Part shown: positions 1-9,685 of the stretch, in pieces
Layout of the letters: the number at the start of each line of letters is the position of its first letter
How positions within the stretch are numbered: the stretch's first letter is position 1
Assembly (NCBI RefSeq): GCF_021134715.1
Contig: NC_060023.1
Coordinates: forward strand, 8,866,001 to 8,930,000
DNA length: 64,000 bases
From: Daphnia pulex
Taxonomy: Eukaryota; Arthropoda; Branchiopoda; Diplostraca; Daphniidae
Reading direction: 5' to 3'
Position numbers and translations under genes: made by a program
The notes under the pieces: model-generated
Database searches by the model: none
What the model saw: only the letters and a program-made list of their open reading frames with translations
What the model was told of the DNA's origin: nothing

Positions 1-110
1 CTAGGCCAGGGTTAGGTAAGGGTGAGCAAATTCCTGATGTAGTAACATCCGAGCTTCCCTTTCCTTTGTCATTTCAGTGTCGCACGTGATATCTACCTGT
101 GACATTGTGT
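1..110 (+). promoter_or_regulatory. Promoter-like block, copy 1 (initiator without TATA)
   Basis: A TCAGT initiator lies at 74-78 (A at 76). It sits in a block that resembles 1760-1865: a GGTAAGGGT-like run, then TCAGTG about 53 bp later, then ACGT, then CTACCTGT. No TATA box is seen 30 bp upstream and no DPE match downstream. Reading it as a promoter rests on the likeness to the better-formed second copy. Confidence 0.3.
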
Positions 111-1798
111 GTAAATTTATTGGCCGATCGTCAAGGACATCATCGTCCGTCGTTAAGTTCCGTCTGGTTTTTTTCCTTTTTGTTTATTGAAATGTCACGG
201 ACTGTCAGATTTTGTTAATCCATGACGAACCTCTTAATTATCAGTCGATTTTGTTAAGAAAACAGTTGCCAAAAACAATTTTGAGTGGGTAAACCTTCCA
301 TATCGGTTCAAGCGAAGGTCTGTGTTCTAGTTTGTAATTTTAGCGATAGTGTTTTTGACGTTTAATCATTGTATATTCCTTGCACTCGTCTGGTTCGTTT
401 GTCACAGCATTTAATGATTTGGTCTGCCTTATCAATTTTGCTTCTTTCGATTCAGGTGAATGGTTGACTGCTGTGTATTCGTCGTTAGCATGCTTATTGC
501 CGTGTTGCAAGTCTTTTTGAAAAAACTGATATTCACGTGAATGATTTTTATTAGTTGTTTGAAAAGGCTTGACATTGTTTAACCGATCCTCGCTACTACC
601 TGTGATGCAACCTTACCTTACCTTGGGCTTTATATTAGCAAATGCTTCATTTGATAATTTGTATCATGTCTTGGTTTAACTTGTTTCGTATTATAAATCG
701 ACGTTTTATGAGTCGATTGAAGGGCTTCGTGACAACAGGATTGAAGGATCGCGTGCAAGGTTAAAGACCTTTCTGCTGATTGGGAGATGATTGTGTGGTT
801 CAAATTTGAGAAGCATGATTAAGATTCATTGTATAGAATTTTAAAAATGTGTGTTGTATCAACTACTCATTTTCGATAGGTGCTAGCACTGTATCTATAC
901 TTGGGATGTATATGTTGAGTCTGGAGAAATTTGTTTGTTACATCATTGTGTGTTGGTTTATTGCTGTCTCCATTACAGATCGATCCACTCAACAAAATTC
1001 GGGAATCGTCGTGTGTGGGACAGCATCTGGATCCATCCGCCCAGCAGTACATCCGAGTACATCTCCCGAAAACCGTGAAGGTGTTCTTATTACATTTTCT
1101 GTTTGCTGACACATTTGTTTAGAATCGAATGTTCGGAATTTTTGCGATCCTGTCTCGTTAATTATTTCAATTTGAAAGTAAAACTTGATTAGTTTTGTAT
1201 TAAATTCTAACATGTTCGAACACATGCATTTTCAAATACACGTTTGAATTATATCTACTGGATTGCATCCCTTGGATAAGTGTCGTCTAAGGTTAACGAA
1301 GATAACCTCAAAATAAAATTTAAAAAAAAACGATAATAAACTATAATGCTAAATATTTTGCACGATCAACAATAGCCGAAATAATGGCCTTCACATCTTT
1401 TATCATCACCTTCATCCTCTAAACAATTATGCATCTCAGGAGAGTCGAATACAAGTATCAACTACAAAGTTATTTTATGGCAGTTGACGGTGACTTAACC
1501 TACTCAACCACCCGACTCTATTAAATAATTAAAAAAGGCAAAGAAATTTTATCGGTTAAAGGATATGATAGGCAGCTGCAGAAACTAGTTTGTCGATATT
1601 ATAAAAAGCTGTAATATAGACACAGCAATATTCATTATTTCTATTGATTTAAACAAATAATTATTTTTGATATGAATTTGATTATTTTAACATATGAAAA
1701 TGGGGGGAGAAGGAGTTAGGCTTAGGCTACCACGGCCTACCTAGTCATGTGTTTGCCTGAGGCTGGGGTAAGGGGGTAAGGGTTGCGCAAAAATTCCG

Positions 1799-1864
1799 TA
1801 TAAATAGAGGACTTCTTCCCATGCTGTCGTCAGTGTCTTACGTCATGCCTACCTGTCCGGACCA
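1799..1864 (+). promoter_or_regulatory. Core promoter: TATA box, TCAGT initiator and DPE match
   Basis: TATAAATA is at 1799-1806 and TCAGT at 1830-1834, 33 bp from the first T of TATA to the initiator A (1832). GGACC at 1859-1863 falls at +28 to +32, the position and consensus (RGWYV) of the arthropod downstream promoter element. All three are on the plus strand with canonical spacing. No long reading frame follows; the next notable structure is the hairpin at 2580-2670, so the transcript may be non-coding. The motifs are seen; promoter activity is inferred. Confidence 0.55.
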
Positions 1865-2579
1865 CAAGTGCATCGCTTCTTTCTTACAACTTCATGAGGT
1901 AGAGTTTGAATTTTCACGAAGTGCTGGTGTCTTCTCAAATCGATGTTTTTTTTTGTTGCCATTTAATTGTGATTAGTTTAAAGTTTACTTCGTAAAGTTG
2001 ATTGTGTTCTCGCAGTTGAATTTGCTTGGGCTTTATCTTGATTGGATATTGGTTAGAATGTAATTTGATTCATGTTGTTAAGGGCTCTGCTGCCGGAATT
2101 GCCCAACTGTGACATCCTAACCGTTTAGTTATGTCTGAATGGAAGTGTCAACAATTGTGTTCGTGATTGTTCTTGCCACTTACGGAAATACGGCGACGGG
2201 GAAATTGTTAGGTAATCACAGTGGACACATTGTTAGCAGAGGTAAGACGTGGTGGATTTTTTTTAAGGATCGACTAGTGGATAGAATCTTAATTCAGGTA
2301 CGGTCTGATTAGCAGCTATTGGATTAATCAAGATCCCACGCTTTTAGTTTTTAGACACTTTATTCTTGTTTGTCTTTCAAATAACCGAAAAATTAAAGCT
2401 AGCAGCGTCCGCCAATCAAAATCACTGTTAATTTTTTCCATTTGTTAATTTAGAAAATCGATCTTAAATTTGATTTCTAATTTCCAGGTAATTCACGATC
2501 GGCAGTTAAAACATTCAACCCGGCTGGAATGTATCTCTTTTATCTAGTAAGGTTGTTGCAGCTAACTTTTTGCACTGAA

Positions 2580-2670
2580 GTGACGTCTTCCTCGTGGAGT
2601 ATAGGAGAATCCCGTATATCGTCTGTTTCACTTCGTGATTCTCCATTACTCCTATGGAGGAGGATGTCGC
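2580..2670 (+). ncRNA. Pre-miRNA-like hairpin
   Basis: A 91-nt stem-loop. Positions 2580-2593 pair with 2657-2670 without interruption; then a small internal loop; 2596-2601 pair with 2647-2652; a 2x2 internal loop; 2604-2611 pair with 2637-2644; then 2613-2614 with 2634-2635, leaving a terminal loop of about 19 nt. At least three lower-stem pairs (2581/2669, 2585/2665, 2588/2662) are G-U on the plus strand and would be A-C mismatches on the minus strand, which favours plus-strand transcription. Size, near-continuous stem and small symmetric internal loops fit a microRNA precursor. The arms match no miRNA I can recall. A TATA/initiator promoter lies about 750 bp upstream on the same strand. 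It could also be a structured element of another RNA. Confidence 0.5.
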
Positions 2671-4679
2671 AAATTATTCAACATGGCCATTCGGCCTATT
2701 TTTTTTATTTTTAGCGTTACGTTTCAATAATTTTGGACAATAGAGATTGGACGAGTTGTGTCGTGAGGCATTTTTATTGCATGTTCAAGTGGATACGGAC
2801 ATTGATGAATGCAACGATATGCGGATATGGTTATTGGCTCTGTTTCCATCCTTAAAAGGTTTTTGTGTTATTTAATATTGCGCTGCTGTTTGGAATTGAA
2901 ATATTAATCTTCGCAATGTCGTAACATAATTTTAGTTGTCGGTTCCGATCAACAAAAAAGGGCATTCAATTACTAGTTTGCGCCGCTATCTTTCGTTGGC
3001 TTGATAAGATTTTTGCGAGAACGTTTTACCCCATTTTATTGTACCTGTTAACGAGTTTTTTGAATGACTAAATATTTTGTATAACATGGACGAAGCGCTT
3101 CATTATTTTAGTTGCTTTCCTCCTCGTCCATGGATAGCGGATAAAGGAACTGTCACTCCGCGATTCCGGTTTTGTTCGAACCAGTTTACTTTTAATATAA
3201 AATCTATTTCAAAATCTATTTCTTGGTAATAAACCGTAGTTGCATTCTAGTTCGTCAGTGGACGAATTGATTGTTATTTCGCTTATCAATTCACAGAACA
3301 TTGGAAAGTTGCGCTACTTTCAAAGTTATTGAGACTTATCAATTTGACATTGATTTTCTGAATCTGCAGTCTGTTTTGGGTTTTATTTTCCACCTAATAG
3401 TTTTCCAAATTTTCACCTGCCACTCAATTTCACGATTTAATAATGCGGTCGGTAGAACAGTTCTGCCAGTAGTTCTTCAAGTTATCCCTTATCAAATATC
3501 TGTCCCACTTACTAGCAGGTTTAGCCGACTAAGTGTCTGAATAAGTGAAATTACGTCTAAATCATTTCATAATTATCGTATTTTCTCTGAGGGTCAATAA
3601 ATAGCATCAAACTAATGTGGCAGCTTCTCATACCTGATGTCTTGAAATGTTTTCGACTAAAACATTTTGTTTTTACAAAAAAATTTAGGTTAATGGAGAG
3701 CCATTTTTTTAAATCGAATTGAATTTAAAGCGAACGAAAACACTTTATTCCTAGCAGCGGCTAGGCATATCTTTCTGCGAAGAAGTTTCAATGTAAGTAG
3801 AAAAAGCAAGTTCAACATCGATCCGGTACAGTAAGTTAATTTCTTAGCCTAATTAAATATTTTTTTATCACATAAAGGGTGATGGATATTTACCTGAAGA
3901 TACGGTTCAAGCTGAAAAACAAAAAAGATAAATGATACGACTTTGATTGATCGGTACTTGAACCCGCTTGAACCGTTTATATCTATTTGTTTCAAATAAT
4001 TTAGCAATATATGTGTGGGGCTACTGGGCAATTGGACACACTGTTTTCGAACTTTCAACTGTTTGCCAGCCAAAAAAAAAAGAAATGTGCCATCTATTGC
4101 GTGCTGTAAATAAACTACTTTTTTGGCGTTTTTGATAGCGAAGGAAAACTTGAAATAACTGCTCAATGGAAATGAGGAAAAGTTAACGATTTTACGCTAT
4201 TCAAGTTTCGAATTACCTGGTATACACTAAATCGTAGTATTTATCTGTAGCTACTTTTGTAGAATATGAAGGTGCTTGCTGATAATAAAATCTATTTATT
4301 TACCTGTATATTCATTTACTTTTTTTCATGTTAGGGTTATTTTAGAAAAAATATAATGTATTTTTTTCAGTCTTTTACCTCTTTTGTAGGTGATTCAATA
4401 GATTTGAAAAGACAGTGAAACAAAACAACGGAAAAATTGCATGAAAAAATAAATGATTTGGCAACGTTTTAAAATTCAAATTCAGCCACCAGGGGGACTA
4501 CAGAGTCTGTATTGCGAAATCAATAAATCATCCAGAAATAAGTTGAGCTTGAGCATCAGGCCATCAGTGCCAATCAGCATGAGGATTGAGGAAAAACCGT
4601 TGGAAATGTTCTCGCACTCATACTTGACAGACGTCGTCAATACGCTACAGAATCTTAGTTGAAATTTCGTAAAATTTTA

Positions 4680-5045
4680 ACATTTTTCCACCACAGAATT
4701 GTTTTCTTCTTATATCAACACGGTAAGCTTTTATTTTCTCATTATTTAGTACATAATTACTAATCTAGTTTTGGTAAAATTGGTAGAAGCATCCAGTTCA
4801 TTTCCCTTAAATGTTGAAGACTGCTTCCAATTTATCTTCCTTGCAGCTGGGATTTGTTTCTACTAAAGATTAACTTTCTTCCAGCACCAAAACGGTAAAC
4901 CTTTATTCTCTCCTAATTTGGTATTAAAAATAACCTAGTTTTTTTTTTTAATTTGTAGAAGAATCGAGTTCATTTCCCACCGTGTTTGAAGCCTGCTTCC
5001 AATTTTTCTTCATTGAACTGGGATTTGTTTTATTTTTTCATCAAA
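4680..5045. repeat. Imperfect direct tandem repeat, two units of about 185 bp
   Basis: Unit 1 (about 4680-4865) and unit 2 (about 4870-5045) share in order: a CAG-ended pyrimidine tract, an ACGGTAA donor-like site, a TTTATT(T)TCTC tract, CTAGTTTT, GTAGAAG, GTTCATTTCCC, GACTGCTTCCAAT-like text and CTGGGATTTGTTT. The acceptor-like and donor-like signals recur in both units, so each could be a small exon of a non-coding transcript. It immediately precedes the palindrome at 5093. Confidence 0.5.
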
Positions 5046-5145: not shown

Positions 5146-5627
5146 ATGGGAAGAAAGAAGAAGAACATGGCTTCCAAAAAGAAAGCTGAGGAAGTAACAC
5201 ACCTGAATGTGAGGTACATGGCAATCCCAAAAAGAAAAGGAAGATTGATTCTTTCCTGCTTGAAATGGCAAACCAGACCGTTGACAACTTGAAGGACTTA
5301 ATCGAAGATGGATTTCAAACAATAATTGCCAACAACTGCTTGTTGGATGTAAAGCAGGCATTCGTATTCATTCCTCCATTATTTGACCCAACTATTGCTC
5401 ACCAGATCATCAATTTCCTCATCAAGAAATACCCCAACATCGACGTCTCCAAAACAGAAGAAACATCTGACTCACAACGTTTAATTTTACTCAGCATTGA
5501 GCAGCTCATTGACCTACTAGAGGCTGTTGGCGCGACGTGCGTATTTTGTGGGGATTCTAAAGTACGAAGATACGGGCTAGCTTGCTGGAATGTTGAATGG
5601 ACTACGTCTTGCGACTCCACCGGATGA
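5146..5627 (+). pseudogene. Left-arm copy of the palindrome gene, frameshifted
   Basis: This begins with the same ATGGGAAGAAAGAAG start as the right-arm copy, but about 5194-5202 reads GTAACACACC where the other copy has GATCC. The net gain shifts the frame, and the original reading stops soon after. From an internal ATG at 5265 a 120-residue frame (start MANQTVDNLKDL) is open to 5627 and nearly identical to residues 38-157 of the intact copy. It is either a pseudogene or an N-terminally shortened product that lacks the basic segment. Confidence 0.6.
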
Positions 5628-6256
5628 AGTACCAGATCCCGCCAAAACTCTGTAGTTCCGAATAGCTCTAAGAGGAAATGGCATCAAGCAAAACATCGAG
5701 AACTTTTCGTCCAGGGTCCACTCCAGATGCGAACTGCAAAATTTAAAACATTGAAGACCAGAAATTTGTTCGGAAAGCGGTGAAATTTCTTCAAGAGACG
5801 TCCACCGACTATTATCGCCTGAACAACCAAGTGTGTTCACCTCGCTCCAAGTAAGTCTTCCAATTCTTTTACAGTTGAAAATTCACGTTTGTTCCTTAAA
5901 GCAAGTTTTTCCCATTCAGATTGGGGCAAGGGAGTCTTCGGAATGGCATTGGCTTCTCGCAAATTCGTGGCTTCATACCAGCAAGCTAGCCCGTATCTTC
6001 GTTCTTAAACTGTAAAAGAATTGGAAGACTTACTTGGAGCGAGGCGAACACACTTGGTTGTTCAGGCGATAATAGTCGGTGGACGTCTCTTGAAGAAATT
6101 TCACCGCTTTCCGAACAAATTTCTGGTCTTCAATGTTTTAAATTTTGCAGTTCGCATCTGGAGTGGACCCTGGACGAAAAGTTCTCGATGTTTTGCTTGA
6201 TGCCATTTCCTCTTAGAGCTATTCGGAACTACAGAGTTTTGGCGGGATCTGGTACT

Positions 6257-6730
6257 TCATCCGGTGGAGTCGCAAGACGTAGTCCCTTCAACATTCCAGC
6301 AAGCTAGCCCGTATCTTCGTACTTTAGAATCCCCACAAAATACGCACGTCGCGCCAACAGCCTCTAGTAGGTCAATGAGCTGCTCAATGCTGAGTAAAAT
6401 TAAACGTTGTGAGTCAGATGTTTCTTCTGTTTTGGAGACGTCGATGTTGGGGTATTTCTTGATGAGGAAATTGATGATCTGGTGAGCAATAGTTGGGTCA
6501 AATAATGGAGGAATGAATACGAATGCCTGCTTTACATCCAACAAGCAGTTGTTGGCTATTATCGTTTGTAATCCATCTTCGACTAAGTCTTTCAAGTTGT
6601 CAACGGTCTGGTTTGCCATTTCCAGCAGGAAAGAATCAATCTTCCTTTTCTTTTTGGGATTGCCATGTACCTCACATTCAGGATCTTCCTCAGCTTTCTT
6701 TTTGGAAGCCATGTTCTTCTTTCTTCCCAT
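6257..6730 (-). CDS. Unrecognised basic-start protein, right-arm copy
   Basis: A 157-residue frame on the minus strand. The first 35 residues are strongly basic (GRKKN, KKKAEE, then NPKKKRKID, which looks like a nuclear localisation signal). A hydrophobic helix-rich part follows, with spaced leucine/isoleucine residues (for example LLDVKQAFVFIPPLF and IINFLIKKYPN), faintly like leucine-rich adaptor proteins. Near the end is a CVFCGDSKVRRYGLACW segment with three cysteines. I do not recognise the family. The frame may continue by splicing: the arm holds further open sequence and a donor-like CCAAGTAAGT towards the spacer. The start was chosen because the ATG has an A at -3 on the coding strand and the frameshifted copy keeps the same ATG. 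Confidence 0.5.
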   Translation of the reverse strand: MGRKKNMASKKKAEEDPECEVHGNPKKKRKIDSFLLEMANQTVDNLKDLVEDGLQTIIANNCLLDVKQAFVFIPPLFDPTIAHQIINFLIKKYPNIDVSKTEETSDSQRLILLSIEQLIDLLEAVGATCVFCGDSKVRRYGLACWNVEGTTSCDSTG

Positions 6731-6778
6731 GGTTTGTCTATGGTTGAACCCTTTGTTCTGTTCAGAGAAGTAACATTT

Positions 6779-9685
6779 GCATAACCTTTGCTTGTGGATA
6801 AATAAAACGTGTTAATAGCTTATTATCTGATTTTTTAGATCTATTTCTTGTATTTTGTTCTTTGTTTTCAACTTTTTTCAATACCAATTTTTGTATTAAG
6901 TTGATCAGTATATTATCTGCAACTAACTTAAGATTTAGAACTCATTACTAGATGTCGCCAGTGTAGTCATTGTTGTTCCTACATCGTGAAATCGAGGCGG
7001 AATGGGCGAAACAAATTGTTGCTAATTTATACTTAAAAAGTTATATTCCTGTGATTTGAATTTCCAAATTGAACTTCATATGTAATGTAGGTTTACCTTG
7101 AGATAATTTCCTTATTTTTATCATGCACCAACTTATTTCTCCAAATTCTTGATGCATAGCCTACTGTCAGTCATTCCAACAAGTTGACTTATTAGCGCTC
7201 AGTCACTTTCCATCCAATAGACCCATCATGCTGTTAAAAGCCAAAAATTCATGGTTGAAGCTCACATATATTGGAATACAAATCTGCAGAGTTAAGGTAT
7301 TTTCCCATTACTACTACCAGATCATTACAATTCAGATTTTCATGTAACTTAGGTATTTCTTGTTCATGAACCATAGGACTTTTCTGAATCTTGCAATTTT
7401 GGTGGTGTAATCTGCAACATAATGTTTTTCCATTGTGGCTTTTTCTACTTCTGTTTAGAAGGCAACCCAGCTGAGAGATAGGTAGAGTTTTATTTCTCAT
7501 AGGTAAATTTGTGTAAATTTGTAAATAATGTAGAGAATTTCATTGTCCCATTGCTGCTTAGAGTTTCAGTGACACGAAGAAGGTGAAGTGAATAACCTAT
7601 TAACCTGGAATGTGTATGCACCTGTACCAGATCTGTACATGAAAATATATATGTACATGAGTACAGATTACAATTTTATTTTTTAAATCCATATAGCCAA
7701 TAATCATTTTATTCTTTCCAGCAGATCTGCAAACAAGAATGTTATGAATTTCGTTTTGAGGTCAATGGATTTGGCGCTGGTTGCTGTTACTGGCCTTTTG
7801 CGACGTCTTGATATCAGTTTGGAATAATAGCTCTGGACTCTTGGAAATCCTCACTCATACTCAAGGTAACGTTGAAGTCAACTTATGTGAGGAGTTTTAG
7901 ATTCGTCACATTTTTTGCATGTCTTCGTTGTGTTTTTTGCATGCAAGTCAACCTGCAGACAGGTCGGCCAGTTTGTCCAGACAGGATCATTCATTCATCA
8001 TTCATAAGTATTTTTCTGAATGTTAAACACGAGCAGTAGGTCACCATTAACTTTAGTTTATTGGATGAATGTTGGAATATTTATTGACATATTTCCTTTA
8101 GATTCAACATGACTAACTGGCTAACTGCTAACTAAATAAGTGGATGAATGATATCCACACCAGGTGGCGCTAGTGTCTTCAGGAACGCTTAGCGGCCATT
8201 TTGTTCCAAGACGCAGCTGAAGTAGGTTGTTGGTTGTCACGCTCCTCACGATGAAAATTAAAAGGTATTTATTGTTAATTTTCTATTGTTATTGAATGTA
8301 AAATGTTGATGTGAAAATTTACAGGTGCTTTAGCACGTTGAAACTAATTTGCCAAATCATTCAACTCAGACTTGGAAGTGCCTGTACATTTCCGAAATGG
8401 CGTGCCTCGTGTGTCTCGCTGCCTCTTCTTAGGCGTACGTCTCATCTCATGCAACAGAAAAAAGTAATTATTTTGATCAAATGTCTTGCTAAAGTACTAC
8501 AGATTTAGTTAACATGACTAGAGAGTAGACCGATTTGCTCTGCTTCTATAGAAAGTTTGAATCAGATATCCAAGTTATTCTGTTAGTCTGCGTAGTTTTC
8601 TGTTACTCTTTGTATTCTTTTGTTATAATGAGTATGCATATGTACACAGTTGTGTTTCTCGAAACTAATTTTCTTTTCTTGAACAGGTATAACAAACACT
8701 TCTTTAACGCTGGTGGTTACCTTGTTGCAGCCAAATGGTGAAAGGTGTGACGAAGACAGATTGAGCTTTTGTATGCAGCATGCAGTTGCAGTGTAATCCA
8801 GAAGTTGCTGTGCTGTTGTAGCTGAGTTGTTGCATCTGGGTTCCTGATTTAAAAATTTTTGTGTTAGTGTTTTCATCCATGCCATATGAAATTGCTCTGC
8901 CAGTGATATTTCGTGATGCTGCTTTAAAATTTTGATCTGTTGTCTTTTGAGTTTTCATTCAATCATGCAGTATACGACTGAGGCAACCTGATCAATGTCA
9001 GGTTTGAAACAGTCGAGAACTGCTAGATAAAACAAGCTTTCTGCGCCAAACAAATAATAACTTGCATATAACTTGCATCATGTTATTATCGCGGTAGAGA
9101 AAGCGACAGGCCCCCCCCCCCCTGGGGGCCACAGGAAAAATGTATATGATGTATGTAAAATGTTATAAAAATAAATTTTGTATGCAATAAAATATTCGTA
9201 TCAATCTTTTTCGCGATAAATTTTTTTAAATCTCGTGTAAGGGGAATTTTTTTAAATTTTTTTTCAAAAACAAAAGTCTGGACTTAGCAGAAATAATAGG
9301 GTGTGGACTTTGAATTTTTAAGAAAATATTGTTGGAATTTCAATATTAGAGTTATAAAAAAAGGGAAGAGTTTAAATATTATTGAAATGTAAGAGTTTGA
9401 ATTTCTATCAGTGTATTTGGCAAGATCAATTATTTGTAAGTTTACATGCCACTCAGAAATATTTTCTCACATCATGTAATTGTCAGCAGGAGAAGATATT
9501 TAAGGAGAAAATAGAAACATGCACTTGTAATTTAAAAATCAATCTTGTATTTCAGCAATCTTTCACAAATACAGAGAAATACTTCAGAACTTAGGTAGGT
9601 CGGAGCAGTGATGATACAGTCATGAAAATTGCAATACATATGAACCTAAGTTTGGTAGTTTGGAGCAGGGCAATACTTAAATTTG
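6779..9685. other. Mostly non-coding; one possible small spliced ORF
   Basis: No recognised gene. A possible two-exon small frame on the plus strand starts with ATG at 8251 (8251-8264), skips a 60-bp GT-AG intron and runs 8325-8508. It would encode about 65 residues, basic and without a known motif. A C-run next to a G-run (about 9110-9127) could fold back on itself. The rest is AT-rich and featureless to my reading. Confidence 0.35.

Follow-up and report, generated by a model that had tools for sequence, protein, structure and literature searches.

Does the stem-loop at 2580-2670 of this stretch of the Daphnia pulex genome belong to a microRNA gene? The window, that is, the whole stretch of 64,000 nucleotides analysed here, had been read from its letters in an earlier note, which described about 30 pairs in a 91-nt stem-loop with a 19-nt terminal loop and proposed a possible lineage-specific microRNA. 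The description is borne out by folding. On the plus strand the 91 nt form exactly 30 pairs (14+6+8+2) around a terminal loop of 19 nt at 2615-2633. Counted from the base, the lower stem of 14 bp is followed by a 2x4 loop and a helix of 6 bp, then by a 2x2 loop and 8 bp, and the last 2 bp lie beyond a 1x1 mismatch. The internal loops had been called small and symmetric, which is true of the 1x1 and 2x2 interruptions but not of the 2x4 loop, which is asymmetric. The same plus-strand stem appears in surrounding folds of 171, 251, 351 and 501 nt, and in the 171-nt fold its immediate flanks are unpaired. The minimum free energy is -45.6 kcal/mol, compared with -23.3 +/- 3.0 kcal/mol for 200 dinucleotide shuffles (z -7.43), none of which folds as well, so that the comparison with shuffled sequence proposed earlier as a check comes out in favour of the hairpin. 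The coordinates of the hairpin, its predicted products and the upstream motifs are collected in Table 1.

Table 1. Features of the candidate locus, in window coordinates
Feature	Position	Strand	Basis
TATA box TATAAATA	1799..1806	+	sequence; composite pattern search
Initiator TCAGT, presumed start A1832 (+1)	1830..1834	+	sequence; spacing to TATA and DPE
DPE GGACC, +28 to +32	1859..1863	+	sequence; composite pattern search
Hairpin, candidate primary microRNA stem-loop, 30 pairs	2580..2670	+	folds
Lower stem, 5' side, uninterrupted 14 bp, partner 2657-2670	2580..2593	+	fold
Predicted 5p product, begins with U, 12 bp above base	2592..2613	+	predicted from fold and general Drosha/Dicer geometry
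Terminal loop, 19 nt	2615..2633	+	fold
Predicted 3p product core, 22 nt	2636..2657	+	predicted from fold
Lower stem, 3' side	2657..2670	+	fold
CNNC motif (CAAC), 19 nt past predicted 3p end	2679..2682	+	sequence; motif named in the excerpted text of PMC6298569

The orientation of a transcript had been deduced from G-U pairs that would be A.C mismatches on the other strand. Three G-U pairs are present (2581-2669, 2585-2665 and 2588-2662), all of them in the lower stem, and the mirror case, an A.C mismatch, does not occur in the stem. The minus strand also folds less well (-33.1 kcal/mol, z -4.6). The direction of the argument thus stands, but only three pairs are informative, and a result of three against none has a chance of 1/8 under no strand preference, which makes the wobble argument for the plus strand weak. 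These counts bear on a first alternative, a short local inversion whose complementary arms are starting to decay and are not processed into a microRNA. Decay would give A.C as often as G-U, so that three against none tells, weakly, against such a duplication; that just three G-U pairs argue for a plus-strand RNA at all tells in its favour. Genomes also contain many more hairpins than microRNAs, a general consideration on the same side.

Rarity was assessed on both strands of 264 kb, made up of the window and twenty stretches of 10 kb that were hand-chosen at round coordinates, one of them (L002) adjoining the window. Hairpins with 26 bp or more were kept, and of 4,835 raw and 1,442 filtered predictions 893 remained once overlaps had been removed; z was taken from 30 shuffles of each. 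The candidate ranks fourth by z among the 893, and the three above it (L003, and L019 on both strands) are tandem-repeat DNA as judged by eye. MicroRNAs from the genome itself provide a stricter comparison. Seven loci were used as controls, five of them above the Rfam cut-offs (bantam, mir-8, mir-1 and two copies of mir-2) and two below (mir-7 and a third mir-2 copy, from the cluster); these microRNAs mark the genome as that of an arthropod. Trimmed alike as single hairpins, they reach z values of -2.5 to -6.9, mir-1 ranking highest at -6.9, against -7.5 for the candidate. In an untrimmed comparison, with the candidate cut to 93 nt and the controls carrying 16 nt beyond the Rfam match, the values were -2.1 to -6.3 against -8.3; the gap therefore shrank with like-for-like trimming. 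Because microRNA loci of the same genome spread over such a range, stability alone discriminates poorly. It is enough to say that the hairpin is not a product of chance, yet it is no proof of a microRNA. That the candidate exceeds all seven controls would equally suit an inverted duplication, young inverted repeats being very stable. Against a duplication, the stem is as long as that of a microRNA, with mismatches and wobbles distributed over it, and no repeat was found around the hairpin; we regard it as rather unlikely, though as a serious competitor.

In size and energy the candidate comes close to one of the genome's mir-2 copies: its arms measure 35 and 37 nt (36 and 40 in mir-2), and it has 30 bp (33), 83% of the arms paired (87%), a loop of 19 nt (23) and -45.6 kcal/mol (-45.1). 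It shares with canonical animal primary microRNAs a single stem-loop of about 30-35 pairs with small loops, and differs from bantam, mir-2, mir-1, mir-7 and mir-8 in lacking a family match and in lacking a mismatch within the 14 bp of the lower stem. Other hairpins were seen during these comparisons. A perfect 21-bp mir-2-like hairpin (L039, G000:C8:1419779-1419836, minus strand) lies outside the mir-2 cluster and below the Rfam cut-off; its z of -10.0 is stronger than that of the candidate, and it was not counted among the controls. The window holds a second non-repeat hairpin of microRNA-like appearance at 8954-9035 on the minus strand (27 bp, 6-nt loop; z -6.2, or -3.8 with flanks). At L007, at least nine of the 45 best hairpins are copies of one element, about 80 bases long and able to form a hairpin; most are spaced by about 830-860 bases.

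The candidate appears to be single. A DNA search of the 133,188,837-base genome (13 contigs), which skips very common words, returned only the hairpin itself, and no second copy or repeat of the region 1650-3600 was found. There is thus no sign of a transposon, and a transposon or MITE hairpin, which would be expected in multiple copies, is not supported. With up to three mismatches allowed in the arms, one other site resembling the 3p arm appears (L025); it was dismissed as a paralogue because no comparable hairpin forms there. The arms contain no known microRNA seed that we recognise. The earlier statement that no conserved arthropod microRNA matches agrees with Rfam, in which no family exceeds its gathering threshold anywhere in the window. 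A permissive Rfam search of 1-5000 gave only a manA-II match over the hairpin (18.7 bits, E 9.8). At 3889-3995 there is a weak match resembling MIR171 (E 0.36), which was set aside, having an 11-bp stem, a long loop and a z of -2.2 with flanks. An H/ACA snoRNA was likewise rejected on inspection: the ACA at 2681-2683 sits 11 nt beyond the stem, and no large internal pocket is present. Exact matches to the 3p arm in viral contigs and to the 5p arm in prokaryote genomes numbered zero, although little was to be expected of either search.

In literature text, six long strings and six strings of 11-13 letters from the arms gave no occurrence as a microRNA. The long strings occur in no paper. Short arm strings do recur, in 11 papers with one string each: 10 contain UCUCCAUUACU, and one, on Clostridioides difficile, contains GATTCTCCATTAC. 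Two of these 11 name miR-26b-3p in the title, and no title names a crustacean; an arm string and vertebrate miR-26b-3p likely share a run, which is judged to be chance given its short length and the number of all known microRNAs. An earlier report of the candidate is possible in sources beyond Rfam and the main literature texts. The Rfam let-7 model had no match in the genome, which may be due to the length of the D. pulex let-7 precursor, given as 179 nt in the excerpted text of PMC6828783. Table 4 of the same paper lists novel Daphnia magna microRNAs, and none of its ten mature sequences has a run of more than six letters in common with the hairpin; they resemble the candidate, as read here, in being lineage-restricted within the same genus (PMC6828783).

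A promoter with TATA box, initiator and DPE had been placed about 750 bp upstream on the plus strand. Its letters are confirmed, and the presumed start at 1832 lies 748 bp upstream of the hairpin on the same strand. No second triple of this kind occurs in 528,000 strand-bases, and shuffled sequence gives a mean of 0.1. This rarity is somewhat flattered by the search pattern, which was written after the site had been seen and whose upper limit of TATA-to-initiator spacing the site just reaches. The TATA box and initiator alone occur 11 times in the same 528,000 strand-bases, against 4.6 in shuffled sequence. TATA boxes usually lie at about -31, and that of the 1832 start is slightly further out, at -33.

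This promoter may serve another gene. The hairpin could then be a structured piece of an exon or intron, for instance of a small secreted-peptide gene, and would be incidental or have a cis effect on splicing, stability or translation. Just downstream of the promoter, a frame of 34 codons (2139-2240) has a hydrophobic start resembling a signal peptide and runs into a strong splice donor, AGAG|GTAAGA (2242); acceptor-like sites follow at 2487 and 2714, and a frame of 74 codons (2490-2711) is open through the hairpin. The codon scores of these frames are 0.6 and -3.0 bits, respectively, on a scale trained on 2,374 codons of the window, while three Pfam-supported exons, themselves part of the training set, reach 0.12-0.18 bits per codon. 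A small protein gene between promoter and hairpin is therefore unlikely from its codon usage. The hairpin itself scores 0.1, -8.6 and 0.2 when read in each of the three frames of the plus strand. Within 1-5000 the scores nowhere exceed the cut-off for a coding stretch, and T-rich DNA yields hydrophobic frames by chance. The splice-like sites and open frames speak for a transcript of another gene and the codon scores against it; as a source of the hairpin it is improbable.

The wider surroundings bear on the earlier remark that no protein gene lies near. It stands as far as Pfam is concerned: the scan covered 23 of the 52 frames in the window with 110 aa or more. They include every one of the nine with a start before 14,000, and none of these nine contains a Pfam family. 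The first Pfam-supported exon, HAGH, is at 14.1 kb on the minus strand, and in the 10 kb to the left of the window, where 9 of the 20 frames with 90 aa or more were scanned, no match over the cut-off was obtained. It does not stand for coding-like frames, which are present at 5202-5537 (plus strand) and 6347-6772 (minus strand), nor for the small frame at 2139. Beside the first of these, an inverted repeat is visible by eye within 5560-6000, the sequence at about 5560-5590 recurring reverse-complemented at about 5978-6000; it is perhaps a mobile element.

A microRNA would need to be cut from the stem. For the mature duplex, a minimum of about 16 pairs is usually asked, with no large bulge. The predicted duplex (2592-2613 with 2636-2660, on guessed cut sites) has 16 pairs and the 2x4 loop inside it; with overhangs of 2 nt, this loop would make the 3p product 24-25 nt long, ending at 2660. 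The excerpted text of PMC6298569 names a stem of about 35 bp as a determinant of Microprocessor and a stable single hairpin as a criterion, and the candidate has about 35 stem positions and folds better than shuffled sequence. Sequence helpers of Drosha in the same excerpt are a basal UG, an apical UGUG, CNNC and a mismatched GHG, not all of which are needed (PMC6298569). The candidate gives a mixed picture: the CNNC motif of Table 1 is nearby, but a mismatched GHG is absent from the lower stem, the UGs at 2576 and 2581 are off the expected -14 by 2-3 nt, and there is no apical UGUG, a UGU at 2624-2626 sitting centrally in the loop.

As to the machinery, an RNase III gene on contig 4 is, judging from its protein sequence, a Drosha, with E values of about 1e-132 to solved Drosha chains and 1e-18 to Dicer, and the genome is on this ground taken to encode Drosha. 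Among the RNase III-domain matches listed, 11 of 20 lie at about 3.1-6.5 Mb of contig C12, most with internal stops (introns or broken copies), and are possibly a family of Dicer-like genes.

A stem-loop may also feed Dicer without Drosha, as a tailed mirtron or a short hairpin-siRNA. Like 3'-tailed mirtrons, the candidate has GT at the start of the hairpin (2580-2581) and an AG, at 2714, closing a downstream polypyrimidine-rich tract (2696-2714). It differs from them in its Drosha-type lower stem and its length: mirtron hairpins measure about 60 nt, which 91 nt with a 14-bp lower stem exceeds, and the donor would fall inside the stem. Compared with the usual hairpin-siRNA precursors, the candidate is far shorter. 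Either origin is very improbable.

The reading that we prefer is a lineage-restricted primary microRNA, and from sequence and fold we give it about an even chance. RNA polymerase II would start at the upstream promoter, near 1832, and the plus-strand transcript would fold at 2580-2670. Drosha would crop the long lower stem some 11-14 bp above its base and Dicer would remove the 19-nt loop. An Argonaute would then take one arm, either the 5p arm starting near 2592 or the 3p arm starting near 2636, and the loaded arm would repress mRNAs by seed pairing with putative targets. Counted for the microRNA are the z of the fold and its stability in wider folds, its rarity, a size and energy like those of mir-2, the stem of about 35 bp and the promoter triple, as well as the Drosha gene and conserved microRNAs of the genome, the single copy and the low codon scores of the hairpin. 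Counted against it are the missing GHG mismatch, misplaced UG and central UGU, the asymmetric 2x4 loop with its long 3p product, the duplex of 16 pairs and a z beyond all seven controls, as a young inverted duplication would have, together with the post hoc promoter pattern, a promoter that is possibly another gene's, just three strand-informative pairs and arms that are named as a microRNA in none of the papers searched. The lineage-specific microRNA of the earlier note fits the structure, orientation, promoter motifs, single copy and absence of an Rfam match, and is partly supported overall. More specifically, and with doubt somewhat outweighing confidence, the locus may be a microRNA gene that is specific to Daphnia and so far undescribed, with no protein host gene and with a TATA/Inr/DPE promoter of its own; its well-paired stem would reflect a recent birth.

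Even if true, the candidate would leave ideas of microRNA function unchanged. If it is expressed, a model crustacean would gain a new microRNA whose promoter is easy to recognise and which would be useful for studying the birth of microRNA genes and how they gain promoters of their own.
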